From positions 1 through 53,559 of the forward strand of contig JAJRXM010000017.1 in NCBI GenBank assembly GCA_024276275.1: DNA of 53,559 nt, written 5' to 3'. The notes beneath the pieces were generated by a model, which saw nothing but the letters and a program-made list of their open reading frames with translations, ran no database searches and was not told the DNA's origin. Made by a program: the position numbers and the translations under genes. How positions within the stretch are numbered: the first letter of the stretch is position 1; every line of letters begins with the position of its first letter. This DNA is from Candidatus Zixiibacteriota bacterium (lineage in GTDB: Bacteria > Zixibacteria > MSB-5A5 > GN15 > FEB-12). Of the stretch, positions 27,696-48,348 are shown in pieces.

Positions 27696-28118
27696 TTACT
27701 CAGTCTTTGAATTCTCATTCATGACTTTTATTTTTGGAGTATTGTGCCAATGGCCATGTTCGGCTGACCATGTTTTTCCCTCAGGTACTTCGCCAGGAGG
27801 TTGTGGAGTCAATTGCTTTTGTGGCGTCCCCGGTGTTAAACTTGGTTTAGAACCTGAAGCATCATGCCAATGACCGTGTTCCGCTGACCAAATTTTTCCC
27901 TCAGGTACTTCGCCGGCAGGTTGTGGGGTCAATTGTTTTTGTGGCGACCCTGATGTCGAACCCGGTGTCAAGTTTTGTACTTGAGTCGGTTGTGATGCAG
28001 GGGATTGTGGGGGGGAAGATGGGTTATTGTTCGACCAAAAGTAAGTTGTACCAACTCCTATTACAGCGACAATGATCACGACAAACAGTAATTGGTTCTT
28101 TTTAGAATTTGAGAGCAT
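27696..28118 (-). CDS. Membrane-anchored protein with two HGHWH repeats
   Basis: The start is placed at the ATG at 28118, which has AAAGG 9 bases upstream; a TTG three codons earlier is possible. The 140-residue product has one N-terminal membrane helix (about residues 10-28), a Pro/Ser/Gln-rich linker, then two near-identical units separated by about 38 residues, each QKQLTPQP-x-GEVPEGK-x-WSAEHGHWH. The histidine-rich HGHWH end suggests metal binding but this is inference. Similar 'GKxWSxEHGHWH' tails exist in other bacterial proteins of unknown role. It lies directly upstream of the group 3b hydrogenase operon on the same strand, separated by 521 bases. Confidence 0.7.
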   Translation of the reverse strand: MLSNSKKNQLLFVVIIVAVIGVGTTYFWSNNNPSSPPQSPASQPTQVQNLTPGSTSGSPQKQLTPQPAGEVPEGKIWSAEHGHWHDASGSKPSLTPGTPQKQLTPQPPGEVPEGKTWSAEHGHWHNTPKIKVMNENSKTE

Positions 28119-28444
28119 ATTTTTCAACCTTTTCTTTTTGGAATGAACTTATTGGCTGCTGATACGACCTAGAACCTTTTGTCAAATCATGAAAAATGGC
28201 GGGGTTCATTAGACGACCTTCGCAACTATTTAATGTATGATATAAACTTGCTTTAATCAATTCTTAATTTAAATAAATTTTCTTTGCAATATGTAATAGT
28301 ATATTTAATTTAGAGTAAATTACATTCAGGTGTGTGAATCTATTTGTAAATATATCAGTTACATTAACTATTGTCTTTTTCAAGAATTCAGTTACTTTAT
28401 TATGTGTAAGTTCACATTTTAAAATAAGTAATATTCTTTCGACT
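28119..28444. other. Intergenic region with a repeat shared with 36.76 kb
   Basis: This gap separates divergent genes (HGHWH protein and sigma factor). Bases 28208-28224 (ATTAGACGACCTTCGCA) recur exactly at 36756-36772 beside an IS remnant, and the likeness continues for about 15 bases (ATGTATGA). This suggests a leftover of a mobile element end. Just before it lies AAAAATGGCGGGGT (28192-28205), also found in the serine recombinase gene at 48221-48234. An open frame runs into the sigma gene from 28334 but has no family-like content. Confidence 0.5.
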
Positions 28445-29014
28445 ATGACAAAAACAAACCAATCTAGATATAAAAAACTCATAGAGAGTTGTATTGAAGG
28501 TGATGAAAGTGCCTGGGAAGAATTAGTTGAAAAAATAACTCCGGCAATATTGTCTGTTTGTCGCACTATGAGACTATCATCTGAAGAATCGTTAGATATC
28601 TTTGGTCAGGTTTGCTATCTGCTGTTACATAATTTATCGCAATTGAAGTCATCTGATAAAATAATTGGTTATGTGTCGACAATTACTCGCCGAGAGATAT
28701 TAAGAATCATTCGCAGAAAGCAACTTTTTGATACTATTGACCCTGAAATCAGAAAATCTATTTCTGTAACAGAATTCGAAAATCCGGAAGTTTTATTAAA
28801 ACAATCTGAAAGTTCGGAAAAATTGATTAAAGCTGTAATGCAACTTCCGGAAAAAGAATACAAGTTGATACGACTCTTATTTTTAGATGAAACGGAACCT
28901 AGTTATGAAGAAATTTCCAAAAAATTGAATATTCCGGTATCTTCAATTGGACCGACGAGAATTCGTATTTTGAATAAACTTAAGAAAATTTTACAAAGAA
29001 AAGACAGAAAATAA
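28445..29014 (+). CDS. RNA polymerase sigma factor, ECF-like
   Basis: The start at 28445 (MTKTNQSRYKKLIESC) is preferred because conserved content begins there; the frame is open upstream. The 189-residue protein has sigma region 2 (CIEGDESAWEELVEKITPAI; DIFGQVCYLLLHNL; IGYVSTITRREILRIIRRKQ) and region 4 (QLPEKEYKLIRLLFLDE, then YEEISKKLNIPVSSIGPTRI), with nothing between, as in ECF sigma factors. It heads a compact operon with an unknown 195-residue protein (gap 51 bases) and a TPR-CHAT peptidase, and probably controls that operon and its own synthesis. No zinc-binding anti-sigma factor is adjacent. Confidence 0.82.
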   Translation: MTKTNQSRYKKLIESCIEGDESAWEELVEKITPAILSVCRTMRLSSEESLDIFGQVCYLLLHNLSQLKSSDKIIGYVSTITRREILRIIRRKQLFDTIDPEIRKSISVTEFENPEVLLKQSESSEKLIKAVMQLPEKEYKLIRLLFLDETEPSYEEISKKLNIPVSSIGPTRIRILNKLKKILQRKDRK

Positions 29015-29065
29015 ATTATGTATTTTATACTCTTGTCATGTCTCTTAAAGAAACAGAGGTGGTAA

Positions 29066-29653
29066 ATGAATTATAATCAAGATATAATTGAACAACTGAC
29101 TGCTCTTTTAAGAGGTGAGTTAAAGGGAAAACAGAAAAAGACTCTATTAGAGGAGTTACAATTGGATTCTGAATTATCAGAGATGTTTGAACTTTTGAAA
29201 AAAATGCATGAAGTCAGACATCCTGAGTCAAACCAGATAATATCTGCCTCCAAAAAATTATCTAAAACTCTTTTTACTGACTTTTTAAAAAAACAATTAT
29301 CACATAAGACTGATTTTGGTGTACGGGTTTTTGACTCAGCACTTCTTCCGCTACCTGAAGGTGTTAGACCTGCCTCGGTGGATACTCGTCTGCTAAAATA
29401 TCATGTCGGAGAAGCTATTGTAGAATTAACAGTATATCCGATAACTATTGATTCAGTAGAAATAATAGGACAGATTGCAGGAATTGAGAATAATAAAAGT
29501 ATTAAAGTTATTGCTGAAGTCAACGGTGAAAAGAAAGAAGTAGAAGTAGATGAGTTTTGTCTTTTCCGTTTTGAGAGAATCGATATAGGGAGTTGTCGTT
29601 TATTATTTTCCTCTGAGAATTCTAAAGAAGGAATTATTGAATTAGAATTATGA
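29066..29653 (+). CDS. Unknown protein between sigma factor and CHAT peptidase
   Basis: This 195-residue soluble protein has a good ribosome site (GAGGTGG). The first 80 residues are helical and charged (IIEQLTALLRGELKGKQKKT), like the N-terminal part of anti-sigma or FecR-type proteins, but there is no zinc-binding HxxxCxxC motif and no membrane helix. The C-terminal half (about 115-195) is predicted to be a beta-sandwich (VELTVYPITIDSVEIIGQIA; KEVEVDEFCLFRFERIDIGS), reminiscent of carboxypeptidase-regulatory-like folds. Its stop overlaps the next start as ATGA. An adaptor or regulator linking the sigma factor to the CHAT protein is possible, without direct evidence. Confidence 0.55.
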   Translation: MNYNQDIIEQLTALLRGELKGKQKKTLLEELQLDSELSEMFELLKKMHEVRHPESNQIISASKKLSKTLFTDFLKKQLSHKTDFGVRVFDSALLPLPEGVRPASVDTRLLKYHVGEAIVELTVYPITIDSVEIIGQIAGIENNKSIKVIAEVNGEKKEVEVDEFCLFRFERIDIGSCRLLFSSENSKEGIIELEL

Positions 29654-32403
29654 TTGATGTACATATCATAAGGCAGCTTAAAAGCAAAAAAGACTTTAGT
29701 GATTTATTGCAGTTAGATTATAATAATGACTGCAAGTTGTCTATTTCTGAACTCAGTAAAAGTTTGAATGAACTGTATCGAATAAGTATCAGCGATGCTG
29801 ATACTTATCTAAGCACTGTTATTAACTGTTCGAAATATATTCCAAAAGAACATCATAATAAACTTCTAACTATGCAGGCACGTCTGTCTTTGTGGAAAGC
29901 TGATTATAACAAAGCCTTATTTTTTTACAATAAAGCCCTAGCCCAAGTTCTTTCTAAAAGAGACTTTTATGCTTCTGCTATGATTCGTAAAGGAATGATA
30001 GAAGTTTACATGTACCTTTCGGAATATGATGAAGGTCTTAAAACTGGAAAAAAAGCTTTAGAGTATTTCAAGAGAAAAAATCTACTAAACCATGCTGCTC
30101 AGGTCATGACAAATATCGGAAATATCTATCATCGTATGGACAAAAACCGTTTAGCTCTTTCATATTACGATAAAGCAAAAGATATATTTTCTCAACAGGG
30201 TGGAGTTGCCTGTGCAATTGTAGATTTTAACAGAGCAAATATATTTGCTAATATGAATGAACTAACTAAAGCAAAGAAATTATATATTGAAGCCGGTTTA
30301 TTCTATAAGAATTCACAGATGGAACTTGCATATCAACAAACAGAGTATTCTATCGCATATCTTTTCTTTTTAGAAAGTAAATATACCGATGCATTACGTT
30401 TGTTTGAAAAAGTTTATGATTCTTTTGAAGAGTTAGGAGATAAAACATCAGCAGCTGTGACACAACTTGATTTAGCAGAGTTAAATTTACAACTAAATCA
30501 GTATGGTTCTGCTATTATGCTTTCAGAGATGATAATTCCAATTTTCAGAAAATATAAGATGCCATACGAAGATGGAAAGGCGTACTATTTTTCAGCAATC
30601 GCCAAATTAGAACTCGGTGATATTTTTCAAACTCAAAAACTATTGAAAGAAGCCAAAAAAGTTTTTGTGAAAGAGAAAAACAATTTGTGGTTGGGGATGA
30701 TTGAAAACGCTAACAATTCTCTTTTTATATCAAATAAGAAATATAAAAAAGCACTGGAAGCATCTATATCAGCTAAAAAGTATTTTAGAAAAAGTAAAGA
30801 TATAAGACGTGAACATGATGCTGATATCTCACATATTCAAGCATTGTTTCTTTCAAAAAATGAAAAAAGAGCTATCTCAAAGTTAAAACAATTACAAAAT
30901 AATAGTATTACTTTGGAACAGCAACGCAAGATTCATGCTCTTTTGGGTGAATACTATTTTAAAAAGAAAATGTATCAGCTAGCTCAAGAGGAATTTAAGA
31001 ACGCTGTTCGTATAATTGAAATAATGATGGAAGCACTTTATTATGAAGAGATTAAGTTTTTCTTTGCTGCCGATAAATTTAAAATATATTCTCGTATAGT
31101 TGAATGTTCCTTATGCTTAGGCAAAGTAGAGACTTCATATTTTCAAAATTTGAACGCATTATCATTACTGAATGAAAAAATTATCCCAAAAAGTTCTCTA
31201 AAAGGGAAAGTACCTGATAAAATTTTATCTCAAATAAATTCACTACGTCATATTTTATCTCAGGCATATAAATTTCCACAAAAAGGAGAACGAAGTGCAG
31301 TAGCTGTTCATGATATTCAAAAAACTGAAAAGCAGTTATGGCATTTTGAACAAAAAGCAAGAGTTTCTTATAATTTTGATAAACAAAAAAATAGAAAGAC
31401 TGTCGATAAAACATCTGTTTTTATACCTAATAAAAATGAATTAGTTTTAAACTATTTTATATCTGAGAACAAAGTTGGTGTTTTTGTGCAATCAAAGAAT
31501 GATCTTTCATTTATTGAATTACAAATAACCCTACAAGAATTAACCGAACTTATAAGAAAAATTCAGTTTTTGTTTGAACAGTCACTACACAAGACAGGTA
31601 TTGCAAATTCTATTGAAATCAAAAGAGCATATTTACTGAAGTTATATCAATTACTTATAGCTCCAATTCAAATTAAAGATGAAACAGAAAGAGTTTATAT
31701 TATTCCCGACGGTATATTAACTCAAATTCCATTTATAGCATTATGCGATGATTCGGGTAAATATCTCAAAGACAGATATGCTGTCTCAATAATAACAGAC
31801 CCTAATTCGATGAATAATAATGCCGCTGAAAAGATTGATTTTTCCAAATTACAAAATTCAATATTTTCTGTTTCGCACGAATCATTACCTTTTGTCGATA
31901 TCGAAGGGGATAAAATTCATAATAGATTTAAAAAGTCTTTCTGTTATAAAAGGCAAAAAGCAAACACTTTAAATCTAAAAAGAGAGTTGAAAGAATCTAC
32001 AGGTTTTATCCATTTAGCTGCTCATGCTTCCAGATCATCTGAGAACCCTCTTTTTTCTCGAATTTTACTTTCAGACGGGGTTCTTTTTCCGTTTGATTTA
32101 TTTGGACAAGGTATTCAAGCAGAATTAGTTACACTTTCAGGTTGTCAAACAGCCGCTCCTGGGTTAAATTACGGTAATACGTTTTCTTTAGCTAAAACAT
32201 TTTATCGAGCCGGAAGCAGATTTGTACTAGCCTCATTATGGCCTATTGATGATAAAGTAACTATGATGTTTATGAATGAGTTTTATTATCAACTTTCGAA
32301 AATAAAAAATGTTGAGAAATCGTATACAAATGCAATACAAAAAATATCTATACAAATAACCGACCCTGCTTTTTGGGGAGCATTTATTTTAATTGGAAAA
32401 TAA
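29650..32403 (+). CDS. TPR-CHAT caspase-like peptidase
   Basis: This 917-residue cytosolic protein has roughly 450 N-terminal residues of tetratricopeptide repeats (QVMTNIGNIYHRMDKNRLAL; ATRV-type helices throughout), a middle region of helices, and a C-terminal CHAT domain (about 660-917). CHAT domains are caspase-family cysteine peptidases. The dyad appears intact: His792 in GFIHLAAHASRSSENP and Cys832 in LVTLSGCQTAAPG, followed by the usual GNTFSLAKTFYRAGSRFVLA and SLWPIDD segments. It is encoded between an unknown protein gene (overlap 4 bases) and a secreted subtilase gene (32-base gap). The TPR part may sense a partner that activates the peptidase; the substrate is unknown. Confidence 0.88.
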   Translation: MIDVHIIRQLKSKKDFSDLLQLDYNNDCKLSISELSKSLNELYRISISDADTYLSTVINCSKYIPKEHHNKLLTMQARLSLWKADYNKALFFYNKALAQVLSKRDFYASAMIRKGMIEVYMYLSEYDEGLKTGKKALEYFKRKNLLNHAAQVMTNIGNIYHRMDKNRLALSYYDKAKDIFSQQGGVACAIVDFNRANIFANMNELTKAKKLYIEAGLFYKNSQMELAYQQTEYSIAYLFFLESKYTDALRLFEKVYDSFEELGDKTSAAVTQLDLAELNLQLNQYGSAIMLSEMIIPIFRKYKMPYEDGKAYYFSAIAKLELGDIFQTQKLLKEAKKVFVKEKNNLWLGMIENANNSLFISNKKYKKALEASISAKKYFRKSKDIRREHDADISHIQALFLSKNEKRAISKLKQLQNNSITLEQQRKIHALLGEYYFKKKMYQLAQEEFKNAVRIIEIMMEALYYEEIKFFFAADKFKIYSRIVECSLCLGKVETSYFQNLNALSLLNEKIIPKSSLKGKVPDKILSQINSLRHILSQAYKFPQKGERSAVAVHDIQKTEKQLWHFEQKARVSYNFDKQKNRKTVDKTSVFIPNKNELVLNYFISENKVGVFVQSKNDLSFIELQITLQELTELIRKIQFLFEQSLHKTGIANSIEIKRAYLLKLYQLLIAPIQIKDETERVYIIPDGILTQIPFIALCDDSGKYLKDRYAVSIITDPNSMNNNAAEKIDFSKLQNSIFSVSHESLPFVDIEGDKIHNRFKKSFCYKRQKANTLNLKRELKESTGFIHLAAHASRSSENPLFSRILLSDGVLFPFDLFGQGIQAELVTLSGCQTAAPGLNYGNTFSLAKTFYRAGSRFVLASLWPIDDKVTMMFMNEFYYQLSKIKNVEKSYTNAIQKISIQITDPAFWGAFILIGK

Positions 32404-32435
32404 TTTTAACCATAAATATATAGAGTGCCTAAAAA

Positions 32436-33892
32436 ATGAGACGATACTTAAAACAATCTACGTTGATTGCAATTTTTACTCTTCTTTTAATGTTTGGAAC
32501 AACTATTGCCGGAGGGAAAAAGCCGGTGAAGCGGTTGTAAAAGTAAAGGGTAATACCCAAGCAATTTCTGTTGCGACAGATTTAGATGCTGTTGTTATTG
32601 ATTCAATACCTTCAAAAAGAACTTATTTGTTTAAATTTTCAAAAGCCCGTTCTGTTGATGAAGTTGTTGCAAAATTAAACAGTAATGCTAATGTCGAATC
32701 AGCAACAACTAATACTACTATAGACCTTCCCGAAGTATTTCAGATTAGTCAGGGTTTTCCTGATGAATCAGAACCTATTTTCAATAAAGGAATATCTCCA
32801 AAGAATTTTTATGCTCAGGAAGGTTCTTATGATATCGGTATTGATTCAGCACAACTAATTTCTACGGGTAGTAATGTAATAATAGCAGTAATTGATAACG
32901 GTATAGATTATTCACATCCTCTTATACAAAATTCTTTGATTCTTACAGGCCATGATTTTATATCAACAGGTAGTGATGCATCTGAACAACCGGGTACCAT
33001 TTATGGACATGGTACTTTTGTTACCGGTTTACTTCTTTTGACAGCACCTGATGCTTCGATTATTCCACTTAGAGCTTTTGATGGTGAAGGAGTTGGAGAT
33101 CAATTCAAAGTTGCTAAAGCTATTGATTGGGCGGTACGACACAAAGCAGATATTATAAATATGAGTTTTGGTACTACCGAGATGATTGAGGCGTTACGTA
33201 TTGCTATTGAAGATGCTACAAACAATAATGTAGTGTTGGTCGCAGCATCAGGTAATGAAGGGAGTGAATTACCGTTTTACCCTGCAGCTCATCCCGATGT
33301 AATAGCGGTTGCATCTGTAGATACGTTAGAACTGTTAGCCGGTTTTTCAAACTATGGGGGCTATCTGGATTTAGTTGCTCCGGGAGTGAATATTTATTCT
33401 GCTTTAGCAGGTGATTATGATTGGGGTACTTGGAGCGGAACTTCGTTTTCGGCTCCGATTGTAAGCGGTACTATTGCCATGATGAAACAAATTGAACAAG
33501 GTTATTCTCCTGCTCAAATACAAGACCATTTGAGAAATACTTCCCGTGTTGAATTGAAATGGGGGGCAGTATCTGTGCCAGATAATCAATACGGGTATGG
33601 AATGATAAACTGTTACGATGCTGTAGCACAGCTTTCAATAGGAGACTTAGATAAGAACGGCATTCGGAATATGACAGATTTAACTATAATGGTAGACTAT
33701 ATTACTAACAGAAATTCCGGTGGTAACAATACTGATATAATAAAAACTGAATACGTTATTCCTGAAGCATTAATTGACTTAAACTGTGATGGTGATGTGA
33801 ATGCCTCGGACGTTGCTGTAATGGTACATCATGTTTTCGTGAAATGGCGTGATTTTAAACCTTGTTATCAGTCACAAGGGAAAAATAAATGA
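32436..33892 (+). CDS. Secreted subtilisin-like (S8) protease with dockerin tail, frameshift near start
   Basis: ATG at 32436 begins a clear signal peptide (MRRYLKQSTLIAIFTLLLMF...TTIAGG), but that frame stops after 34 residues. The mature protein lies in the -1 frame (AGEAVVKVKGN onward). The switch point is GGGAAAAAG (32514-32522), so one lost A restores a protein of about 485 residues. The longer frame from 32393 has no signal peptide and overlaps the CHAT gene. The catalytic triad is intact: Asp in IAVIDNGIDYSHP, His in YGHGTFVTG, Ser in GTSFSAPIVSG. The C-terminus carries dockerin-like calcium loops (GDLDKNGIRNMTDL; DLNCDGDVNASDVAVM). It is probably secreted or surface-held and co-transcribed with the sigma-CHAT genes. 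Confidence 0.8.
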
Positions 33893-33920: not shown

Positions 33921-33957
33921 AAAAAAACCTCTGTTTTTGTTAAACAGAGGTTTTTTT
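33921..33957 (+). terminator. Rho-independent terminator after the CHAT/subtilase operon
   Basis: A strong hairpin (AACCTCTGTTT / AAACAGAGGTT, loop TTGTT) is flanked by an A run upstream and seven T downstream, 29 bases after the subtilase stop. It closes the operon that starts with the sigma factor gene. The A-rich left flank makes it potentially bidirectional. Confidence 0.9.
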
Positions 33958-34144: not shown

Positions 34145-36553
34145 ATGAGAAAAGCTATAACTATTTTGTTCATCAGCGTACTATTAGTTTCAGGTACAAT
34201 TTTTGCTGCACCGGATTTTAAAGTTAAAAATTCCGACATGCAGTCATCAGAAAATTATGTACAAAATGAAATAATTGTCAAATTTAAAACAGGCGTAGAA
34301 AAATCAAAAACAATTAACAGTCTTGGTTGTACAACAATAGAAGAAAATACTAAGGGCGGATTTACAAAGATCGCTATTCCGGCAAATAAGACTGTAGAAG
34401 AATTGGTCGCTGCATATAGTGCTGACCCAAATGTTTTATATGCAGAACCAAATTATATATACACATCATATTTTGTTCCAAATGACCCCTACTATTCTTA
34501 TCAGTGGCACATGCCAATGATAAACACAGAGCAGGCATGGGATCAAAATTCTGGTTCCGGTGTAATAGTAGCAGTTTTAGATGTAGGTGTTGCCTATGAA
34601 GACTTCGATGTTTATGCTCAAGCACCTGATTTAGCACAAACAAATTTTGTACCCGGATATGATTTTATCAATAATGATGCTCATCCTAATGATGATAACG
34701 GTCATGGAACTCATGTTGCAGGTACAATTGCTCAATCAACTAACAACAATCTTGGCGTGACAGGTGTTGCATACAATTGTTCTATTATGCCTGTTAAAGT
34801 ACTTGATGCTGCCGGTAGTGGAGCAACCGATGTTATAGCGAACGGAATTTATTTTGCCGCTGACAATGGGGCAAAAGTTATAAATATGAGTTTAGGGTCA
34901 AGCTTTTCATCAACTATTATGGAAGAAGCTTGTATTTATGCCAAGAACAAAGGTGTGATAATTATTTGTGCCGCAGGTAACTCTGGTCGTAAAGTTTTAG
35001 AATATCCTGCTGCTTATAATTCTACTGTTTCTGTATCATCGGTACGTCTTGATTCAACGTTGGCAGGCTATTCAACATATAACGACTCGGTAGATATAAC
35101 TGCTCCGGGTGGTGATACCGGTGTTGATCAGGATGGTGACGGATATGTTGATGGTGTTTTACAGCAGACTCACGACGGTTCTAATTATACATCTTTTAGT
35201 TACTATTTTTATCAAGGAACATCGATGGCATCTCCGCATGTTGCGGGTGTTGCTGCCTTAGTTATTTCTGCTTCAGGAGGTACATTAACTCCTGATGAAG
35301 TTCAAGCTATATTACAAAATTCAGCAGTTGATTTAGGTTCAGCAGGTTGGGATAATCAATACGGGTATGGTCTTGTTGATGCAAATGCTGCAATACTTTT
35401 AGTTGCCCCGAATACTGATCCTCCTTTAGCAGCTTTTACCGGTTCACCAACTTCCGGTGATGTACCATTGACGGTAACTTTTACCGATCAGTCTACTAAC
35501 AATCCAACAGCATGGGCATGGGACTTTGGAGATGGTGGAACTTCTGCTACTCAAAATCCATCTTATACATATAGTGTAGCAGGTACATATACAGTATCAT
35601 TAACAGTTACAAATGCTAATGGCTCTGATATAAAGACTAAAGTTAATTATATCTCCGCAACAGATCCTCCTGCCAACCCACCGGTAGCGGACTTCAGCGG
35701 AACACCAACATCCGGTGACACTCCGTTAACAGTTGATTTTACTGATTTATCTACAAATGGTCCAACATCTTGGGCATGGGATTTTGGTGATGGCGGTACA
35801 TCTACTGCTCAAAATCCTTCATATACCTACAATACTGCCGGTACTTATACAGTAGCATTAACAGCTACTAACGCGTATGGTTCGGACACTAAAACAGCAA
35901 TAGACTATATTACTGTTACTGATCCACCGGCAGCCGGAACTATGTATGTTCAGAATGTTGTTGTTACTCGTTCAACTCAGGGAATAAACTCAACCGGTTA
36001 TTGTACTGTGACTATTTATGACAATGCCTCTCAACCTTTAGCAAACGCTACAGTAAATGTAATCTATGATGGGCCATCAACAGGTTCGGGTTCAGCTTTA
36101 ACAGGAACTGATGGTACAGTTACTTTTTCTACAGCAAGAATTAAGAGAGCTGTTGGTGAATGGTGTTTTGAAGTAACAAATGTTACTCATGCATCAAACA
36201 CCTATGATGCCGCATCAAATGTTGTAACCAAAGCTTGTGAAAGTGGAGTTGTATTCTCAAACGGTAATGGTGAGATTTTGGGGATTCCTGGGAAATTTGG
36301 ATTAAATCAAAACTATCCAAACCCGTTTAACCCAACAACAGAGATTTCATTCAGTTTACCTGAAGCATCAACTATTGTTCTTGAAGTATTTAATATCAAC
36401 GGTCAAAAGGTAGATCTGTTAGCCTCGGGTTCATTTACTTCCGGTAATCATACAGTAACTTGGGATGCTACTAATAAACCGTCCGGTATTTATTTCTACC
36501 GTTTAACAGCCGGAGAGAATATAGTAACCAAAAAAATGCTACTTATGAAATAA
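34145..36553 (+). CDS. Secreted S8 subtilase with two PKD domains and type IX sorting tail
   Basis: This 802-residue exported protease has the following order: signal peptide (MRKAITILFISVLLVSGTIFA); an inhibitor-like propeptide (about 38-106, NEIIVKFKTGVEKSKTI, ending ADPNVLYAEPNYIY); a peptidase S8 domain with Asp146 (AVLDVGVAYED), His187 (DNGHGTHVAG), oxyanion Asn279 and Ser360 (QGTSMASPHVAG); two PKD domains (about 430-510 and 520-595, each with WAWDFGDGGTS); an Ig-like segment; and a C-terminal type IX secretion sorting domain (LNQNYPNPFNPTTEISFSLP ... GIYFYRL ... KKMLLMK). Most subtilases carry Asp-x-Gly at the first site, and here Val takes the middle position (DVG). It is a stand-alone gene between two terminators and preceded by TTGGAG. 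Confidence 0.92.
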   Translation: MRKAITILFISVLLVSGTIFAAPDFKVKNSDMQSSENYVQNEIIVKFKTGVEKSKTINSLGCTTIEENTKGGFTKIAIPANKTVEELVAAYSADPNVLYAEPNYIYTSYFVPNDPYYSYQWHMPMINTEQAWDQNSGSGVIVAVLDVGVAYEDFDVYAQAPDLAQTNFVPGYDFINNDAHPNDDNGHGTHVAGTIAQSTNNNLGVTGVAYNCSIMPVKVLDAAGSGATDVIANGIYFAADNGAKVINMSLGSSFSSTIMEEACIYAKNKGVIIICAAGNSGRKVLEYPAAYNSTVSVSSVRLDSTLAGYSTYNDSVDITAPGGDTGVDQDGDGYVDGVLQQTHDGSNYTSFSYYFYQGTSMASPHVAGVAALVISASGGTLTPDEVQAILQNSAVDLGSAGWDNQYGYGLVDANAAILLVAPNTDPPLAAFTGSPTSGDVPLTVTFTDQSTNNPTAWAWDFGDGGTSATQNPSYTYSVAGTYTVSLTVTNANGSDIKTKVNYISATDPPANPPVADFSGTPTSGDTPLTVDFTDLSTNGPTSWAWDFGDGGTSTAQNPSYTYNTAGTYTVALTATNAYGSDTKTAIDYITVTDPPAAGTMYVQNVVVTRSTQGINSTGYCTVTIYDNASQPLANATVNVIYDGPSTGSGSALTGTDGTVTFSTARIKRAVGEWCFEVTNVTHASNTYDAASNVVTKACESGVVFSNGNGEILGIPGKFGLNQNYPNPFNPTTEISFSLPEASTIVLEVFNINGQKVDLLASGSFTSGNHTVTWDATNKPSGIYFYRLTAGENIVTKKMLLMK

Positions 36554-38019: not shown

Positions 38020-39420
38020 TTGCAGATGGACATAAAATACGGTTTTCCGCGTATTAGCTCCGTTTCTCAAGCACTTCACGGTATGGATATAGATTATTTG
38101 CTCAATGCGTTCATAATGTCAATGAACGGGGAGTTACTCTATCAGAAGGATATTGCTGACATAAGGATGATGCTCCAGGGAGAGCAATCTACAATCGTCG
38201 ATGTTGTACTATTGTCGACTGATGGTCAATTATATTATGGGGGGTTTACCTTACTCCCTTCATCACAAAACCCTGGTTGGAAAAAGGCCGATAAAAATTT
38301 ACCTCCAGTCTCGCTCTTGCCAGTAAAACGTGGTGACAAGTGGGGTTTCATAGATGTCACTGGTAAAGAGGTGATCCCCTTCGTATTCGATCAAATAAGA
38401 GACCGAAAAACACCATTCAAGAATGGAATAGAAGCAGTAAAACAAAGGGATAAATGGGGATATATCAATTTAGCTGGAGAATGGGTGTTGCCCCCCGAGT
38501 GGTCTTCAGCGAAAAATTTCCGCGGTGAACTTGCAGCCGTAAATGACAAGGTATCATTCTTAACGGTTGAATGGGGTTTCATTGACAGACAAGGATCTAC
38601 AGTTATTCGGCCGAGGAAACTTCCTTTCGCCGCATTCTTCTCTGACGGTCTATGCCAAGTATTGGAAAATGATCTAACTGGATTTATGAATACCAAAGGT
38701 GAAATCGTTATTTCATGTAAATACTACGATGCAAAAGAGTTTACCGAAGGGTTGGCGTCAGTGCAGCTTGAGAAAAACGGCAAATACGGCTATATTGATC
38801 GTACTGGAAAAACGATACTTCCTTACCATTATAGCTCAGCATACCCATTTTATGATGGCCGAGCGCTAGTATCAACTGATGATGGCTCGTTTATCATCGA
38901 TAAGCAGGGCGATATTAAAGCAACATTCGAAGAAACTCCTGCCCATACTTTTTTCGCCAAACAACGTGTGGTTAATGATCGTATTCGAGCCTCAAGAGAT
39001 GGTAAATATGGTTTTATGGACGGTAGCGGTAAGCTTGTAATACCCATTCAATATGTAGATGCTAAGTCGTTCTTTGGTGACGGATTGATAGGTGTTACAC
39101 TTACCGGGATAAAGGGCAAAGGTAATGAAAAAGAGGGTGGCTGGTTTTTTATAGATAAAGATGGGAATACTGTAATCAAAGAAACCTTTGAACAAATCAG
39201 CAGGTTTTCTGAGGGACGGTGCTGGGTTAAGAGAAACGGTAAATGGGGATTGATTGACACCGATGGTAAACTTTTGACTTATCTCAAATACAATATAATG
39301 CCCACACCCTTTCGCAATGGTGTTTCGAGAGTAACATTGGAAGTGGATTCCGGAGGTCTGTTACCCGAGATATTTTATGCATATGTTTCAAGAGATGGAT
39401 TAATCATTTGGGAACCATAA
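38020..39420 (+). CDS. WG-repeat protein, C-terminal part of the TGA-split gene
   Basis: This 466-residue region is made mainly of about nine WG (KWGFID) beta repeats from about residue 105: KWGFIDVTGKEVIPFVFDQI, KWGYINLAGEWVLPPEW, EWGFIDRQGSTVIRP, LTGFMNTKGEIVISCKY, KYGYIDRTGKTILPYHY, KYGFMDGSGKLVIPIQY, GGWFFIDKDGNTVIKET, KWGLIDTDGKLLTYLKY. WG repeats form surface-binding beta structures of unknown general role. The frame is continuous with 37240-37962 apart from one TGA; internal initiation at ATG 38026 is possible but no ribosome site is obvious. If separately translated it would lack a signal peptide. Confidence 0.7.
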   Translation: MQMDIKYGFPRISSVSQALHGMDIDYLLNAFIMSMNGELLYQKDIADIRMMLQGEQSTIVDVVLLSTDGQLYYGGFTLLPSSQNPGWKKADKNLPPVSLLPVKRGDKWGFIDVTGKEVIPFVFDQIRDRKTPFKNGIEAVKQRDKWGYINLAGEWVLPPEWSSAKNFRGELAAVNDKVSFLTVEWGFIDRQGSTVIRPRKLPFAAFFSDGLCQVLENDLTGFMNTKGEIVISCKYYDAKEFTEGLASVQLEKNGKYGYIDRTGKTILPYHYSSAYPFYDGRALVSTDDGSFIIDKQGDIKATFEETPAHTFFAKQRVVNDRIRASRDGKYGFMDGSGKLVIPIQYVDAKSFFGDGLIGVTLTGIKGKGNEKEGGWFFIDKDGNTVIKETFEQISRFSEGRCWVKRNGKWGLIDTDGKLLTYLKYNIMPTPFRNGVSRVTLEVDSGGLLPEIFYAYVSRDGLIIWEP

Positions 39421-41212: not shown

Positions 41213-41962
41213 ATGTCTAATTCTCTTAAATCTTTACCTTCACTTGACTATTATAAGAATAATCGCAACAAATTTTGTGGATGTTGGACATTAAGAGGTC
41301 AATTGAAAGTGAATAACAATAATATAATCCGTTATTCACGACTTACATGTAAAAGATGGACATGTCCTGATTGTGGAATTAAGAGAGTGCGGATGTTAAA
41401 GCATGCGATAACAAAAATTGCTAGAGAAAAGAACCTCAATCGCTTCTTAACTTTAACACTTGATCATAAAACTTGTACGCCTGAAGAGTCATTAAAGTAC
41501 ATTCGGAATTGTTGGAATAAATTCAGAACATATTTAAAAAGAAAACATGGTCAATCGATCACATTCATTGCTATTGTAGAACCTCAAAAATCTGGTCATG
41601 CACATTTACATATTTTAGTAGATAGATATATTGATCAAAGATGGATTTCTAATAAATGGCGTTCTGTTGGTGGTGGTCGTATGGTATTTATTAAACAGGT
41701 TGATATTCATCGCATCAGCAATTATTTATCAAAATATTTAACTAAAGAACTCTTACTATCACATTTTTTTAGTAAGTATAGGCGATATACAACTTCTCGT
41801 GATATTCAAATGTTTCCAAAACAAAGCAATGGTACGTGGGAATTAATCAAAAGACCACTCAACAGTTTTGTTAAAGCTGTTGGAATTGAGTTTGCTGATT
41901 CCTTTGTTAATAAAGATGGTGAAATGGAATGGTTTACAATAATGGACACTAAGATATTATAA
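41213..41962 (+). CDS. rep: Rolling-circle-type (HUH) replication initiator
   Basis: This 249-residue protein shows the three motifs of HUH endonucleases that nick DNA to start rolling-circle replication. Motif 1 is FLTLTLD; the metal-binding His-x-His motif 2 is SGHAHLHILVD; motif 3 is ISNYLSKYLTK with the catalytic Tyr candidate. An N-terminal zinc-finger-like segment (CKRWTCPDCGIKR) precedes them, as in many plasmid and phage Rep proteins. AGAGG lies 7 bases before the ATG. Its presence in an island with a serine recombinase suggests an element able to replicate as a circle after excision. Confidence 0.75.
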   Translation: MSNSLKSLPSLDYYKNNRNKFCGCWTLRGQLKVNNNNIIRYSRLTCKRWTCPDCGIKRVRMLKHAITKIAREKNLNRFLTLTLDHKTCTPEESLKYIRNCWNKFRTYLKRKHGQSITFIAIVEPQKSGHAHLHILVDRYIDQRWISNKWRSVGGGRMVFIKQVDIHRISNYLSKYLTKELLLSHFFSKYRRYTTSRDIQMFPKQSNGTWELIKRPLNSFVKAVGIEFADSFVNKDGEMEWFTIMDTKIL

Positions 41963-41966
41963 TTAC

Positions 41967-42004
41967 TTGACAAGCTATGCTTGGCATGGTTATAATTATA
42001 ACCA
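41967..42004 (+). promoter_or_regulatory. Promoter and palindromic operator of the RHH-mod-res-recombinase operon
   Basis: TTGACA (41967-41972) and TATAAT (41991-41996) are both perfect consensus boxes, separated by 18 bases, about 33 bases before the ribbon-helix-helix gene. The -10 lies inside an 18-bp perfect palindrome TGGTTATAATTATAACCA (41987-42004). Ribbon-helix-helix dimers often bind such sites and repress their own promoter, so the product of the next gene is the obvious candidate ligand. Confidence 0.7.
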
Positions 42005-42028
42005 ATAACAGAAAAAAATAGGTGATTT

Positions 42029-42193
42029 ATGCTGAAAAAAAAATCAGTTCGTAGAGATGGGAAAATGATTCATGTACGGCTTGATGAGAAGTTACATAAA
42101 AAACTGAAAATCAAAGTCGCTAAAAATGATTTGACTATACAAGAATGGGTATATCAGGTTATTGAAAATGAACTTCTAAATAAGAAAAAATAA
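42029..42193 (+). CDS. Ribbon-helix-helix DNA-binding protein
   Basis: This short gene encodes 54 residues: a basic N-terminus (MLKKKSVRRDGK), one strand (MIHVRLDEKLHKKLKIK) and two helices (NDLTIQEWVYQVIENELL), the classic Arc/CopG fold. AGGTGA precedes the ATG. It sits directly under a strong promoter with an 18-bp palindrome on the -10 and 3 bases before the type III methyltransferase gene. I infer an autoregulator that delays or limits expression of the restriction-modification genes. Confidence 0.75.
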   Translation: MLKKKSVRRDGKMIHVRLDEKLHKKLKIKVAKNDLTIQEWVYQVIENELLNKKK

Positions 42194-42196
42194 AAT

Positions 42197-44127
42197 ATGC
42201 AAAACTTAATGGATGACCTCTTAAAGATATTAAAAAAAGACGATAGGTATTTTTCCGAAGGTAAGTTATTAAAAAACAAATTAACTGAATTAGCATTCAA
42301 GCTTGATATTGAACTTATCGAGAGTCTTTTATCTGATAAAAACTCAAAAGCTCACTTTTTTATTGAAAAAGATATTAAAAAGAAAAAAATTATTATTTTT
42401 GATAAAGACAAATTCATTTCATTTGTTAATAATAAAGAGTTCTTACCTGATTCTTATACATCCTTTAAGAATAGAATCGGTTTACAAGTTAACAATGAAA
42501 GTATTAAAGAAAATAATGATGTTGTTTTAGCATGGGCATACAAAGATTGTATTCTCGAAGGTGGTCAGGATAAAGAAGATCAAAAACGGAACGAGATATT
42601 TTATAACGAAACACTTTCTCCTGATGAAATAGATAGATTATTTGAACCAAAAGTGTTAACCAATTTCAAAAAATTTAACCGTAAAGGTAAAGAGAAGATC
42701 AAAGAGTTTAATAGTGAAGACAATTTTATTATTAAAGGGAATAATCTTCTTGCTTTACATTGTTTAAAAGAAAATTTAGAAGATTGATTAAACTTATTTA
42801 CATTGATCCTCCCTATAATACTAGAGGTGCCGCCAATACTTTTTCATATAATAATTCATTTAATCATTCTTCATGGTTAACATTTATAAAGAATCGAGTT
42901 GAAGTTGCTAAAGAAATGATGACAAAAGATGGGCTATTTATAGTTTCGATAGATCATTCGGAGTTGTTTTATTTGGGTGTTATACTTGACGAAATTTTTG
43001 GAAGAGAAAATAGATTAGGAGTAATTGCTGTTGTCCATAACCCTGGCGGAAGACAAGATGATAAATTTTTTCCTACAGCACATGAAAATATGCTTGTTTA
43101 TGCGAAAGATTATGAACATGCTCAAATAAATACGATTGGAATATCAGATGAGAAGTTATCTGAATTTAAATTTTCAGATAAGTACGGAAAGTATAAACTA
43201 AGAGGATTTCGTCGAAGTGGAAGTAATTCTCTCAAGAAAGAACGACCAGGATTATTTTACCCAATTTATTATAATCCTAAGAAGAGTGAATTCTATTTGG
43301 AGAATAAACTGGACAGTATCAAATTATTGCCTATTGATGAAAGAGGTGTTGAAAGATGTTGGCGATGGGGTAGTTTAACATTTACTGATCGATTAGAAAA
43401 ATATATTGAAGTAAAAAAAGTAAAAGAGAAATATGAACTTTACACTAAAGAAAGAGAATCTGATTATAAGGGAGAGAAAGCAAAAACTATATGGAATAAG
43501 CCTTATTATACTGGGCAGACAGCCACTAATGAATTAAAGAAATTATTTGGTAGAAAATCATTTAGTTATCCGAAATCTCCTTTTCTTATGAGAGATATAA
43601 TAGCTATCGCAACAAATGAAGGCGATTATGTATTGGATTTTTTTGCAGGAAGTGGTACTACAGCAAGTATTGCTCAAAAAATGGGTAGGAAGTTTATAGC
43701 AATTGAACAAATGGATTATATTGAAGATGTTCCTTTTCAGAGAATATTGAAATCAATTAATGGGGAAAAAGAAAGTATAAACGATTCTTTGAATTGGAAG
43801 GGAGGAGGTTCTTTTGTGTATGCGGAATTGATGGAATGGAACGAACGATATATTTCAGAAATTCAAGAGACGAACACAACTCAAAAACTATTAAAGATAT
43901 ACGAGAAATTTAAAGGTGAAGCATTCTTTAGATACGATATTGATTTAAAAAAATTCGATGTAAAAGAATTTAACAAATTATATCTTATTGAACAGAAGCA
44001 AGTTTTATATGAGTGTATTGATAAGAACCATCTTTATGTAAATTTTAGTGAATTAGATGACTCTACTTACAAAGTTAATGCGGAAGATAAAAAGCTTAAT
44101 AAAGAGTTTTATAAGAGAAGTTTATAA
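42197..44127 (+). CDS. mod: Type III restriction-modification DNA methyltransferase (Mod), frameshifted
   Basis: Mod recognises the DNA site and methylates adenine. Two frames (42197-42787 and 42760-44127) form one protein of about 643 residues. The first carries the N-terminal helical region and the lead-in FIIKGNNLLALHCLK. The second carries motif IV LIYIDPPYNTRG and, later, the AdoMet motif VLDFFAGSGTT, the usual DPPY-before-FxGxG (beta class) order. They join if one A is restored in the A4 run 42771-42774, giving CLKEKFRRLIKLIYIDPPYN. With the frame broken no methyltransferase is made, and Res would be inactive or harmful. It is coupled to the RHH gene upstream and to res 2 bases downstream. 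Confidence 0.88.
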
Positions 44128-44129
44128 TT

Positions 44130-46784
44130 ATGGCAAATGGACAAATATTAGTAGAGAAATTAGATTCAGTTTCAAATTTAGGATTTCTAAAACGATATAA
44201 AGCGTTGCCTGATTATATAGTTGATAATTTGAATCAGAATTTCCAAATTAGAAAATATCAAAAGGAAGCAATTGCACGTTTTATTTATTATAAAACCGAT
44301 TATCCTGATAAAACACATCCGATCCATTTGCTTTTTAATATGGCAACTGGAAGCGGAAAGACACTTCTAATGGCATCGAATATACTCTATCTCTTTCAGC
44401 TTGGATATAGAAATTTTATTTTTATTGTTAATAGTACCACTATAATAAAAAAGACTAAAGCAAACTTTCTTGAGAAATCATCACCAAAGTATCTTTTTGA
44501 AGAAAAAATAGTTTTTAATGATAATGAAGTTTTAATACAAGAAGTCGATAACTTTGAAGGTGTAAATCAGGAAAATATAAATATTCTATTTACGACAATT
44601 CAAGGACTTCATTCTCGTGTATGGAATCCACAGGAAAATTCCATTACATTTGAGGATTTCAAAGATAAGAAAATAGTGTTTCTCTCAGATGAAGCTCATC
44701 ACATTAATGCACTCACTAAAAACATTTCAAAGATGTCTAAAACAGAAAGAGAAGAAAGCACAAGTTGGGAAAAAACTATTAATAAAGTATTTCAAAGTAA
44801 TACAAACAATGTAATGTTAGAATATACAGCAACAATAGATTTATCTAACAATGACATCCGCGAAAAATATGAAAATAAAATAATATATCAATACACACTT
44901 AAAGAATTTAGAGAAGATAAATTTTCTAAAGACGTTCAAATAATTCAATCTGATCTTGATCTAATGGATAGAGTTTTGCAGTCAGTTCTATTGAGTCAAT
45001 ATAAGCGGAAGGTTGCTGAAAAGTATCAAATACATCTTAAGCCAGTTATTTTAATTAAATCTCATAAAACAATTGCTCAATCTGAACAAGCAGAACAACA
45101 ATTCAACGATATGATAAAGAATCTAAAAGTTATAGATTTAAAAAATATCGAAAAGAGTAATAAGAATGGTATTATAAAAAAGGCATTTTCATTTTTTAAG
45201 AATAATAAAATTACTTATAGCAATCTTGTTAGAGAGATTAAGTTTGATTTCTCTCAGGAAAAATGTATTTCTATTAATTCAAAATCTGATAGTGAAGAAA
45301 AGCAGATTAAAGTAAATACACTTGAAGCAGATCATAACGAAGTAAGAGTTATTTTTACTGTAAATATGCTTAATGAGGGATGGGATGTTCTGAACCTTTT
45401 TGATATTGTCAGGTTATATGAGACCAGAGATGTCAAACATGGAAAAGCAGGTAACACTACTATTTCGGAAGCTCAACTAATTGGGCGTGGAGCAAGATAC
45501 TATCCATTTGTTAATGAGGAAAGTCAGGATAGATTTAAGCGTAAATATGATGAGGATATTAATAACGAGTTGAGAGTATTAGAAGAACTACATTATCATA
45601 GTCTTAATGATTCACGCTATATCTCTGAGATAAAAGCTGAACTTGTTAGATCAGGTATTGCACCGTCTGAAGAAAATAGAAAACAAATTACAGTTTCAAT
45701 AAAAGACAAAATTAAGAAAACCAAGTTTTGGAAAAATGGAATTTTATTTGTCAATGAGAGAGAAGAAAATAACCGACAATCTGTAAAAAGCATGAAGGAT
45801 ATTATTTCAGAGACTTTATTTCAGCATCGTTTGAAAGTTGGGATAACAACAGAAACAAGTGTTTTTGAAGATACTAAAAAAGATGATCCAACTAATTCAA
45901 AATCAGAAATTAAGAGCAAGACAATTAAAATGAATTCAATTGAAAAGCATATTAATAGAAAAGCACTTGATAGAAATAACTTTTACATGTTTTCAAACTT
46001 AGTTAAATATTTTCCAAACTTAAAATCAATTGAAGAATTTATTACCTCTGAGAAATATCTTGGTGAAGTAGAAATTGAGATATATGGACTAAAATCTCAA
46101 TTGCAGGCTTTAAATAATCATGATAAATATAAAATTGCATTAAAAACATTTAATGAATTATCTGATAAAATAAAAATGAACACTACTGATTTCATCGGAA
46201 CAAAAGAATTTAAAGGATATAAATTAAATAAAAAAATATCAGATATTAAAACGAGTGATATTTTAATAGGTGGAGATGATAAGAAATTTGGTGTTGCGAT
46301 GAGTAGTGAAAAGACTCCAGAGGAACTTAGATTCAATCTAAAAACTGCTGATTGGTATTTGCAGGATGAAAATTACGGAACTGCTGAAGAAAAATATTTG
46401 ATTTTGTTTATTCATCATGCAATGGACGATTTGAAGAAAAAATATAAAGATATTTATCTTTTAAGAAATGAAAGAGATTTCAAAATTTATAGGTTTTCGG
46501 ATGGCAAAGCCATTGAACCAGACTTTGCATTATTTCTGACAGAAAAGAAAACAGGGAAACCTTTATCTTTTCAGTTATTTATAGAACCTAAAGGACAACA
46601 TTTAATAAAACATGATGAATGGAAAGAAGGATTTCTTAAAGAGATTGAAGATAATTTTGAAATAATTCATTTATTTGATGCTGATAATTATCGAATTATT
46701 GGACTTCCTTTCTATAATGAAATGACTACCAAGCAAGAATGTAAGAAGGTGTTTAATACAAAGTTGAGCATTTCAAATGGATAA
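44130..46784 (+). CDS. res: Type III restriction enzyme Res subunit
   Basis: This 884-residue subunit combines a superfamily 2 helicase with a C-terminal nuclease and works only in complex with Mod. Walker A is LFNMATGSGKTLLMAS (about residues 68-83), Walker B is VFLSDEAHHI (DEAH), a later helicase motif is VRVIFTVNMLNEGWDVLNLF followed by EAQLIGRGARYYPF. The C-terminal PD-(D/E)xK candidate is AIEPDFALFL...LFIEPKGQH. The full length is intact. Its stop overlaps the recombinase start by 8 bases. Confidence 0.92.
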   Translation: MANGQILVEKLDSVSNLGFLKRYKALPDYIVDNLNQNFQIRKYQKEAIARFIYYKTDYPDKTHPIHLLFNMATGSGKTLLMASNILYLFQLGYRNFIFIVNSTTIIKKTKANFLEKSSPKYLFEEKIVFNDNEVLIQEVDNFEGVNQENINILFTTIQGLHSRVWNPQENSITFEDFKDKKIVFLSDEAHHINALTKNISKMSKTEREESTSWEKTINKVFQSNTNNVMLEYTATIDLSNNDIREKYENKIIYQYTLKEFREDKFSKDVQIIQSDLDLMDRVLQSVLLSQYKRKVAEKYQIHLKPVILIKSHKTIAQSEQAEQQFNDMIKNLKVIDLKNIEKSNKNGIIKKAFSFFKNNKITYSNLVREIKFDFSQEKCISINSKSDSEEKQIKVNTLEADHNEVRVIFTVNMLNEGWDVLNLFDIVRLYETRDVKHGKAGNTTISEAQLIGRGARYYPFVNEESQDRFKRKYDEDINNELRVLEELHYHSLNDSRYISEIKAELVRSGIAPSEENRKQITVSIKDKIKKTKFWKNGILFVNEREENNRQSVKSMKDIISETLFQHRLKVGITTETSVFEDTKKDDPTNSKSEIKSKTIKMNSIEKHINRKALDRNNFYMFSNLVKYFPNLKSIEEFITSEKYLGEVEIEIYGLKSQLQALNNHDKYKIALKTFNELSDKIKMNTTDFIGTKEFKGYKLNKKISDIKTSDILIGGDDKKFGVAMSSEKTPEELRFNLKTADWYLQDENYGTAEEKYLILFIHHAMDDLKKKYKDIYLLRNERDFKIYRFSDGKAIEPDFALFLTEKKTGKPLSFQLFIEPKGQHLIKHDEWKEGFLKEIEDNFEIIHLFDADNYRIIGLPFYNEMTTKQECKKVFNTKLSISNG

Positions 46785-48348
46785 AGCTCTTATATATACT
46801 CGTGTATCTTCTAAAGAACAAGAGCGAGATGGTTTTTCAATTCCAGCACAAATTAAACTATTAAAAAAATACGCTGAAGATAATAATTTTCAAGTTGTTA
46901 AAATATATGAAGAATCTGAATCTGCAAAAGGATCAGGGCGGAAGAAATTTAATGAAATGTTAGATTATATTAAATTAAATCCAGATATAAAATATTTACT
47001 ATGTGAAAAAACAGATCGACTCTCAAGAAATTTCAAAGATATTGCTACTCTTGATCAACTCATAAATGATAATGATCTAACTATAAAATTAGTAAAAGAA
47101 AATTCAGAACTTAGTAAAAATTCTCGATCAAATGAAAAATTTATGTTTGGCATTAAAGCTTTAATGGCTAAAAACTATGTAGATAATCTTTCCGAAGAAG
47201 TTAAAAAAGGAATGAATGAAAAAGCATCTCAAGGGGTATTCCCAGGTGGTAGTATTCCGCTAGGTTATCTTATTGATAAGAATACAAAAAAGATTTATGT
47301 CGATCCAAGTAGATCTCATTTAATAATAGAAATGTTTCAAATGTATGCTGAAAAGAAAGCATCATTAAGTTTAATATCAGCATGGTCAAAAACTAAATCT
47401 TTGAAAATGCCTAGAAGCGGTCGATCAGTTTCAAAAAGCCAAGTGGAAAGAATTCTCAAAAATCCTTTTTACTATGGTGAATTTAGATGGGCTGGTAAAA
47501 TATTCAAAGGATCACATGAACCTATAATTAGTAAATCATTATTTGACTCTGTTCAGAATGCTTTTAAATCTCATAACAAACCTCACTTAAATAGAAAAAG
47601 TTTTGCATTTGGTAGTTTGATTGTATGTTCAGAATGCGGTTGTAAAATTACAGCACAAATCAAAAAAGGTAAATATGTATATTACCATTGCACAGGTATG
47701 CGAGAAAAACACAGTAAGTGTTACGTTCCTGAAAATAACATAGTTCAACAGTTTAGAAACGGATTGTTACCGATTTCTATTAATCAAAAATCAGCTATTA
47801 AAATATTAGATAAGTTTAAAGAACAAGAAGAGATTATCTATTCAAATCAATCAAAAGATAAACATAGAATTGAACAAAGACTTGCTCAATTACAAAAATG
47901 GTCAGAGCAAAGTTATATAGATAAGCTTGAAGAGAAGATCACCGAAAGCCATTGGCAAAACATCACCGCAAAATGGGGGGATGAAACATCGACACTACAA
48001 AATAGCATGGCGGTGAACGCTTCCCCGATCCATAAAATTAAGACTGTTGAGAAAATATTAGAACTCTTACAAGTTCTTCCGTCACTTTGGGATACAAGGA
48101 ATTTGACCGATAAAAGAAAAATGGTTGATTTGTTATATTCGAACTTTGTTTTAGACGGTGTAACTCTATGTTATACATACAAAAAGCCCTTCAACAATGT
48201 TGCTGAAGGGACTCAAAGTAAAAAATGGCGGGGTCAACCTCACTCTCAGCAAACTTGTGTAATGTTCGAAAATAGTATTTCTATCCGTTATAAATATGAA
48301 AACGGGATTAGACAAAAACACATTTTTTTTGAACCAATTAAATCTTAA
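46777..48348 (+). CDS. Large serine recombinase
   Basis: This 523-residue site-specific recombinase has an N-terminal resolvase domain with nucleophile Ser11 or Ser12 (IYTRVSSKEQERDGFSIPAQ), a recombinase domain (IPLGYLIDKNTKKIYVD; ILKNPFYYGEFRWAGK), a zinc-ribbon motif (CSECGCKITAQIKKGKYVYYH, then C and C further on), and a coiled-coil C-terminal region. It probably integrates and excises the island. The extreme C-terminus (from about residue 465) follows a GC-rich hairpin (CCCTTCAACA...TGCTGAAGGG, 48187-48210) and has unusual composition, so the true end may have been changed by integration. It is the last gene of the island. Confidence 0.9.
   Translation: MDKALIYTRVSSKEQERDGFSIPAQIKLLKKYAEDNNFQVVKIYEESESAKGSGRKKFNEMLDYIKLNPDIKYLLCEKTDRLSRNFKDIATLDQLINDNDLTIKLVKENSELSKNSRSNEKFMFGIKALMAKNYVDNLSEEVKKGMNEKASQGVFPGGSIPLGYLIDKNTKKIYVDPSRSHLIIEMFQMYAEKKASLSLISAWSKTKSLKMPRSGRSVSKSQVERILKNPFYYGEFRWAGKIFKGSHEPIISKSLFDSVQNAFKSHNKPHLNRKSFAFGSLIVCSECGCKITAQIKKGKYVYYHCTGMREKHSKCYVPENNIVQQFRNGLLPISINQKSAIKILDKFKEQEEIIYSNQSKDKHRIEQRLAQLQKWSEQSYIDKLEEKITESHWQNITAKWGDETSTLQNSMAVNASPIHKIKTVEKILELLQVLPSLWDTRNLTDKRKMVDLLYSNFVLDGVTLCYTYKKPFNNVAEGTQSKKWRGQPHSQQTCVMFENSISIRYKYENGIRQKHIFFEPIKS

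Follow-up and report, generated by a model that had tools for sequence, protein, structure and literature searches.

A CRISPR-Free TPR-CHAT Protease Module with an ECF Sigma Factor, a Predicted Anti-Sigma Factor, and a Subtilase Looks Like a Cousin of Craspase

Introduction

The role of a caspase-like TPR-CHAT protease whose gene shares an operon with those of a sigma factor and a subtilase is the question raised by a locus of a Zixibacteriota genome. The nearest known precedent is the type III-E CRISPR system Craspase (Csx29, Csx30, and CASP-sigma), whose locus likewise encodes a TPR-CHAT protease, an ECF sigma factor, and an inhibitor of sigma; cleavage of that inhibitor, Csx30, by Csx29 has been demonstrated (PMC10028731). 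An initial annotation, made from the sequence alone, suggested for the present locus a sigma-controlled cascade, with a 195-residue protein as a possible adaptor or CHAT substrate, and pointed to the part that CHAT proteins take in bacterial proteolytic cascades of defense or death. The DNA analyzed, referred to as the window, is a stretch of 53,559 nucleotides from a metagenome-assembled genome of 3.39 Mb with a completeness of 95.4%.

Organization of the Operon

The genes form one run on the + strand in the order ECF sigma factor, P195 (195 aa), TPR-CHAT (917 aa), and a subtilase denoted S8a, followed by a strong terminator. A second subtilase, S8b, lies past the terminator and is often, though not always, found near the module. 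The features are:

28445..29014, + strand, ECF-type sigma factor of 189 aa with sigma2 and sigma4 regions (TIGR02937 E 2.4e-20; present in 71/73 CHAT loci)
29066..29653, + strand, P195, 195 aa, an open reading frame that overlaps the TPR-CHAT start
29066..29299, + strand, P195 residues 1-78, predicted class-I anti-sigma domain, three-helix bundle plus helix 4 (AF2, alignment, profile hits)
29321..29653, + strand, P195 residues 86-195, conserved beta-sandwich, to the stop codon (AF2 strands 293-401 in the numbering of the sigma-P195 fusion)
29330..29389, + strand, P195 residues 89-108, FDS...PLPEGVRP...DTR loop, candidate TPR-CHAT docking site (conservation)
29650..32403, + strand, TPR-CHAT protease, 917 aa (AF2; Foldseek rank 1 is Csx29)
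29731..31032, + strand, TPR superhelix, residues about 28-461 (AF2 model, conservation)
31627..32400, + strand, CHAT protease domain, residues 660-917 (PF12770)
32023..32025 and 32143..32145, + strand, catalytic His792 and Cys832, a predicted dyad, conserved
32436..32518, + strand, Sec signal peptide segment of S8a, in a frame that differs from that of the enzyme body (in-frame equivalent in locus L034)
32528..33892, + strand, S8a body with prodomain, S8 domain, and C-terminal dockerin-like repeats, offset by a one-base frameshift (PF00082, PF22148, PF00404)
33921..33957, + strand, intrinsic terminator, 16-pair stem then T run (-19.4 kcal/mol, z -6.45)
34145..36553, + strand, S8b, second subtilase, with a type IX secretion tail and PKD domains (PF00082 E 1.9e-62, Por_Secre_tail E 1.2e-10)

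The operon is real and not an accidental grouping. Its sigma factor gene, TPR-CHAT peptidase (PF12770 E 1.7e-38), ATGA overlap between P195 and TPR-CHAT, and terminal hairpin had all been read correctly in the initial annotation. The S8 subtilase described there also stands (PF00082 E 1e-44, PF22148 E 1.1e-7, PF00404 E 3.9e-4). The 32-base gap proposed between the last two genes leads to ATG 32436, which opens a clear Sec signal peptide (MRRYLKQSTLIAIFTLLLMFGTTIAG...) in a frame of only 34 codons, and not to the frame of the subtilase body.

The sigma factor scores 72.8 bits against TIGR02937 (cut-off 42.9), while the Pfam profiles for regions 2 and 4 fall slightly under their cut-offs. Sigma2 and sigma4 are its only regions and it matches the sigma70-ECF profile, as is characteristic of ECF members, and its fold matches include SigW and SigE.

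Other features of the window lie on either side of the operon. At 27696-28127 on the - strand is a 143-aa protein with a tandem segment PPGEVPEGKxWSAEHGHWH and a hydrophobic N-terminal segment that matches no Pfam family, and the gene at 38020-39420 encodes a protein of 466 aa that has seven WG beta repeats. Some 5 kb downstream of S8b, the stretch 41213-48345 carries genes for a REP_ORF2-G2P replication-initiator-like protein, a serine recombinase, and type III restriction-modification, which give it the look of an integrated element.

Linkage and Distribution of the Four Genes

The linkage of CHAT to a sigma factor and a secreted subtilase, as first annotated, is strongly supported. The neighborhood search proposed as its check (sigma, CHAT, and S8 genes together) was carried out on a non-redundant set of 73 homologous CHAT loci, each flanked by 1.8 kb or more on either side. 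Within 1.6 kb of CHAT, sigma is found in 71/73 loci, P195 in 69/73, S8a in 71/73, and all three in 68/73, very far from the refuting outcome of genes that never occur together. Because so many loci are complete although the window's genome holds just 12 S8 genes in 3.4 Mb, the four-gene linkage is far beyond chance. Seeding the search with P195 instead recovers CHAT in 19 of 20 loci, the remaining one being cut at a contig end, and S8a comes next in most cases where the contig continues.

The module is widespread and inherited together. CHAT homologues occur in 53 of the 61 genomes from the same genus, family, and order, and the order sigma-P195-CHAT-S8a is retained down to 20-25% CHAT identity within the module's own CHAT subfamily. 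Beyond Zixibacteriota, named contigs add Acidobacteriota (about 45 loci), TA06, and others; the order in Acidobacteriota is permuted, mostly to sigma-CHAT-P195-S8a. Full-length P195 (E < 1e-20) is patchy within Zixibacteriota, being present in 52 of 132 genomes. Over 73 quartets, the pairwise distance matrices of sigma, P195, CHAT, and S8a show correlations of 0.87-0.94, compared with 0.40 or less after label shuffling within clades, which indicates joint inheritance of the whole set rather than contact.

The module is rearranged in L052 (3188-8985), where CHAT is divergent on the opposite strand and sigma-P195-S8a are contiguous without it, with the four genes still together. The only other CHAT gene of the window's genome, L053 (G000:C80:24011-28689), is divided between two frames and has another ECF sigma gene ~3 kb away.

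P195 as a Predicted Anti-Sigma Factor

P195 matches no family in Pfam or NCBIfam. In its sister clades, the H-x3/4-C-x2-C signature of zinc anti-sigma factors is present, as HxxxCxxC in a divergent Zixibacteriota clade and mostly as HLxxGCxxC in Acidobacteriota. The zinc ligands are gone from P195 of the window's clade, which places the window's protein outside the ZAS (HxxxCxxC) group, and a profile comparison between the window clade and the zinc clade gives a probability of 97.9% (E 5.6e-13). When used genome-wide, the N-terminal profile of P195 finds other proteins, 19 of the 20 checked directly following an ECF sigma gene and 19 of the 20 carrying the zinc motif. The best sequence match in the PDB is RsiW, which is weak (E 0.29).

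The predicted structure is in keeping with this kinship. The class-I anti-sigma domain (ASDI) is an N-terminal three-helix bundle plus a fourth helix, and zinc is optional for the class, zinc-free members being common (PMC7406223). An AlphaFold (AF2) model of a sigma-P195 read-through protein, in which TAA was read as Gly (pLDDT 87.3, pTM 0.69), gives P195 helices at 208-222, 228-240, 242-256, and 260-285, three short and one long, and then the beta sandwich. P195 thus combines the predicted ASDI helix pattern with homology to anti-sigma domains encoded beside ECF sigma genes. The sigma domains of the same model lie at an rmsd of 11.4 Å from anti-sigma-bound sigmaE (1or7) and 22.3 Å from RNAP-bound sigmaE (6jbq), which is a weak comparison. 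No TM helix is predicted in P195, which argues for a cytoplasmic, soluble protein.

Conservation of P195 peaks not in the anti-sigma domain but in the loop FDSxxLPLPEGVRP that opens the beta domain, where D90, S91, and R101 are invariant (32 sequences, all clades). The beta domain itself has fold matches only to generic sandwiches (CrdA, isoamylase domains). Arg101 was considered as the cleavage residue and rejected, since Pro comes next in most members of the window clade. Homology, ECF-gene neighbors, and the predicted helix pattern make the assignment of P195 as an anti-sigma factor well supported. Of the two roles suggested by the initial annotation, that of adaptor gives way to this known kind of protein, which fits best, and that of CHAT substrate is plausible.

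The TPR-CHAT Protease

The protease consists of a TPR array followed by a CHAT domain with a His/Cys dyad, and neither a signal peptide nor a TM segment is predicted in it. The intact His792 and Cys832 first read from the window are both there; H792 is kept in 87/88 homologues, C832 in 88/88, and the nearby H788 in 88/88. That the dyad is conserved like structural residues across 88 sequences from several phyla indicates that catalysis is under strong selection.

The TPR part contains residues as invariant as the dyad in the 88 homologues (N155, R162, D164, N194, and D274), with N158 and N344 nearly so. Residues N155, N158, N194, D274, and E277 occupy positions 9-13 of the A helices in successive TPR repeats. 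Positions 9-13 of the A helix face the concave side of a TPR superhelix. Such an invariant polar ladder on the concave face argues for one conserved ligand, which may be the P195 loop or a common cue.

In the AF2 model (pLDDT 86.7, pTM 0.83), residues 833-843, directly after the catalytic Cys832, have a pLDDT < 50 and are disordered, which might fit a protease in need of activation. The top Foldseek match is Csx29 (8eey_B, E 8.9e-15), with separase and DdvA also high. VIA-align gives Z 23-26 for the Craspase TPR-CHAT and Z 26-29 for TPR receptors such as Rap.

The Subtilase and Its Frameshift

S8a has the marks of a secreted S8 subtilase. Its Asp-His-Ser triad positions are conserved (24 homologues) and its relatives carry signal peptides, which the window has out of frame. 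In L034, of the same genus and the closest relative, the signal peptide and body lie in one frame, as they do in relatives, and the window copy is therefore frameshifted between signal peptide and prodomain. This one-base frameshift is either a mutation or an assembly error; a programmed frameshift is rejected because the closest relative uses one frame. As a consequence, the window copy may not yield an active secreted enzyme. Broken CHAT or S8a frames are also seen in L035, L041, L058, L065, and L096, so disruption of the module is not rare.

Comparison with Known Systems

The module shares three kinds of component with Craspase and differs from it in several respects. Craspase activation needs Cas7-11 and a guide RNA, neither of which applies to the window's module: the genome has no match to a RAMP/Cas7-11 gene (PF03787), and no CRISPR-like repeats lie within 20 kb. 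Membership of type III-E Craspase is rejected since the genome lacks a RAMP gene. The TPR part is also longer than in Craspase, and a secreted subtilase is added as the fourth member. Profiles of P195 give no sequence match to Csx30 among PDB chains, and the miss in fold is compatible with kinship.

Other systems pair a sigma factor with a protease or a CHAT-domain protein. In DdvS/DdvA of Myxococcus xanthus (8rot, 8rw5; PMC4374960, PMC12288465), an ECF sigma factor is likewise under a CHAT-domain protein, and DdvA, whose chain is named CHAT domain-containing protein, matches the window's CHAT with a Foldseek E of 2.9e-11 and a TM of about 0.48. DdvA is labeled a transmembrane anti-sigma factor and has CHAT in the same protein, whereas the module has a separate soluble anti-sigma factor and TPR-CHAT, plus the subtilase. 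In CalpL/CalpT/CalpS (PMC11417357), cyclic tetra-adenylate activates a Lon-type protease that carries a SAVED domain, and the module is without these domains. A caspase-like protease adjoins a sigma factor, as in the module, in the sigma-70 and metacaspase operons known from Myxococcus and elsewhere (PMC3501461) and in ECF/caspase/TPR neighborhoods (PMC8195603); their proteases are Peptidase_C14 metacaspases or EACC2-caspase rather than TPR-CHAT, and the available parts of these two reports describe no anti-sigma or subtilase partner.

Across 5.4 million open-access papers, CHAT domain and extracytoplasmic function occur together only in the Csx29 paper. No description of the four-gene module was found in the open literature, the 2021 ECF re-classification (PMC7826278) standing outside this search. 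The module looks like a cousin of Craspase that does without CRISPR, with protease-gated anti-sigma signaling, a known principle, joined to a secreted subtilase.

A Proposed Protease-Gated Sigma Switch

The operon is probably a protease-gated sigma switch, in which P195 holds the sigma factor, TPR-CHAT cleaves P195, and S8a is the secreted output. Soluble P195 would keep the ECF sigma factor inactive through predicted binding until a cue activates the cytoplasmic TPR-CHAT, the gate of the switch. A conserved ligand, be it P195 or a presented cue, would be recognized by the TPR groove, upon which the disordered catalytic loop would become ordered. The His792/Cys832 dyad would then cleave P195, a step proposed by analogy with Csx29, the best fold match, and its cleavage of a sigma inhibitor (PMC10028731). 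Free sigma factor would take RNA polymerase to its regulon, which probably includes its own operon. S8a would be exported, and the signal peptides of its relatives indicate action outside the cytoplasm, for which reason it is best read as the output of the switch rather than a step of a cytoplasmic cascade.

Several observations count against the switch. The Cas7-11 and guide RNA that activate Craspase are both absent. No conserved autoregulatory promoter was found 5' of sigma, no bipartite motif rising above shuffles in the window clade; a stronger signal in Acidobacteriota was discounted as it looks like relatedness. The window's S8a is frameshifted, and the Pro after the invariant Arg101 of P195 in most window-clade members speaks against cleavage at that bond.

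Alternatively, the module may sense peptides or nutrients, with peptides made by the subtilase imported through an Opp/Dpp-type transporter, bound by the groove as in an RRNPP receptor, and the protease then set on the anti-sigma factor. In 32-35 of the 45 Acidobacteriota loci (among L101-L153), a full peptide ABC transporter of this type (two ATPases, two permeases, and SBP_bac_5) lies directly upstream of the module and an HD_5 gene downstream, a setting that points to the use of extracellular protein or peptide. The TPR domain resembles peptide-bound Rap (RapF 4i9c, Z 28.9, rmsd 4.4, 347 residues) and its ladder is invariant, but TPR folds are widely alike. We consider this reading rather unlikely, as none of the Zixibacteriota loci has the transporter and the window's genome contains no SBP_bac_5 protein, so that import by this route is rejected as a general mechanism. 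Somewhat less probable still is release without cleavage, by which TPR-CHAT would displace or sequester P195 as a co-anti-sigma factor or partner switch and its protease would serve another substrate. The conserved P195 loop and TPR groove would fit such a docking pair, and DdvA of M. xanthus, itself CHAT domain-containing, is an anti-sigma factor (PMC4374960); the near-perfect retention of His792 and Cys832 speaks against it, indicating strong selection on catalysis.

The defense or death cascade of the initial annotation is unsupported, and an antiphage or cell-death system, in which infection is sensed and the sigma factor switches on defense genes, seems improbable. Such a role has precedents in Csx29-Csx30-CASP-sigma (PMC10028731) and CalpL/T/S (PMC11417357), which are CRISPR-linked protease, anti-sigma, and ECF systems, and in the antiphage island of M. 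xanthus under DdvS control (PMC12288465). However, PADLOC finds no defense system in the module, its hits on the module proteins being only a generic subtilase, a weak IetS, and TPR, while the genome lacks a RAMP gene, the constant Acidobacteriota neighbors are transport and HD genes, and S8a is secreted. That P195 is a mere adaptor joining sigma and CHAT is very hard to credit: its missing zinc ligands and lack of Pfam or NCBIfam matches would allow it, but zinc-free class-I anti-sigma domains are common (PMC7406223), and it is opposed by the kinship of P195 with zinc anti-sigma clades as well as by the 19/20 neighborhood result.

A Wider Theme and Its Meaning

The gene set of the proposed switch has counterparts elsewhere. 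In these genomes, CHAT proteins from other subfamilies, which served as controls, mostly lie next to ECF sigma and HxxxCxxC anti-sigma genes as well. Sigma/anti-sigma/CHAT is thus a general arrangement, of which the window has the soluble subtype with S8a. In the loci L154-L173 of the same phylum, which look like an envelope version of the switch, CHAT is an exported protein of ~900-1150 aa with an N-terminal export signal, the anti-sigma factor carries a single TM helix, and transcription is often divergent. ECF sigma, anti-sigma, and CHAT are common to these loci and the module, whereas S8a is not adjacent there as a rule.

Tentatively, TPR-CHAT-gated anti-sigma switches could form a broad CRISPR-independent class with cytoplasmic, exported, and DdvA-like fused forms, and type III-E CRISPR would have drawn its Csx29, Csx30, and CASP-sigma from that class. 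The form seen in the window would be tied to secreted proteolysis, its TPR groove reading a conserved peptide-like ligand.

The module points to cleavage of a sigma inhibitor by a caspase-like protease as a conserved design of bacterial signaling and no oddity of CRISPR. It would offer natural comparators for Craspase that work without guide RNA, as well as a possible origin of Csx29, Csx30, and CASP-sigma. As its components are small, soluble, and adjacent, the proposed cleavage of P195 by CHAT is directly testable, and the switch would give a function to a TPR-CHAT subfamily present in dozens of uncultured Zixibacteriota and Acidobacteriota.
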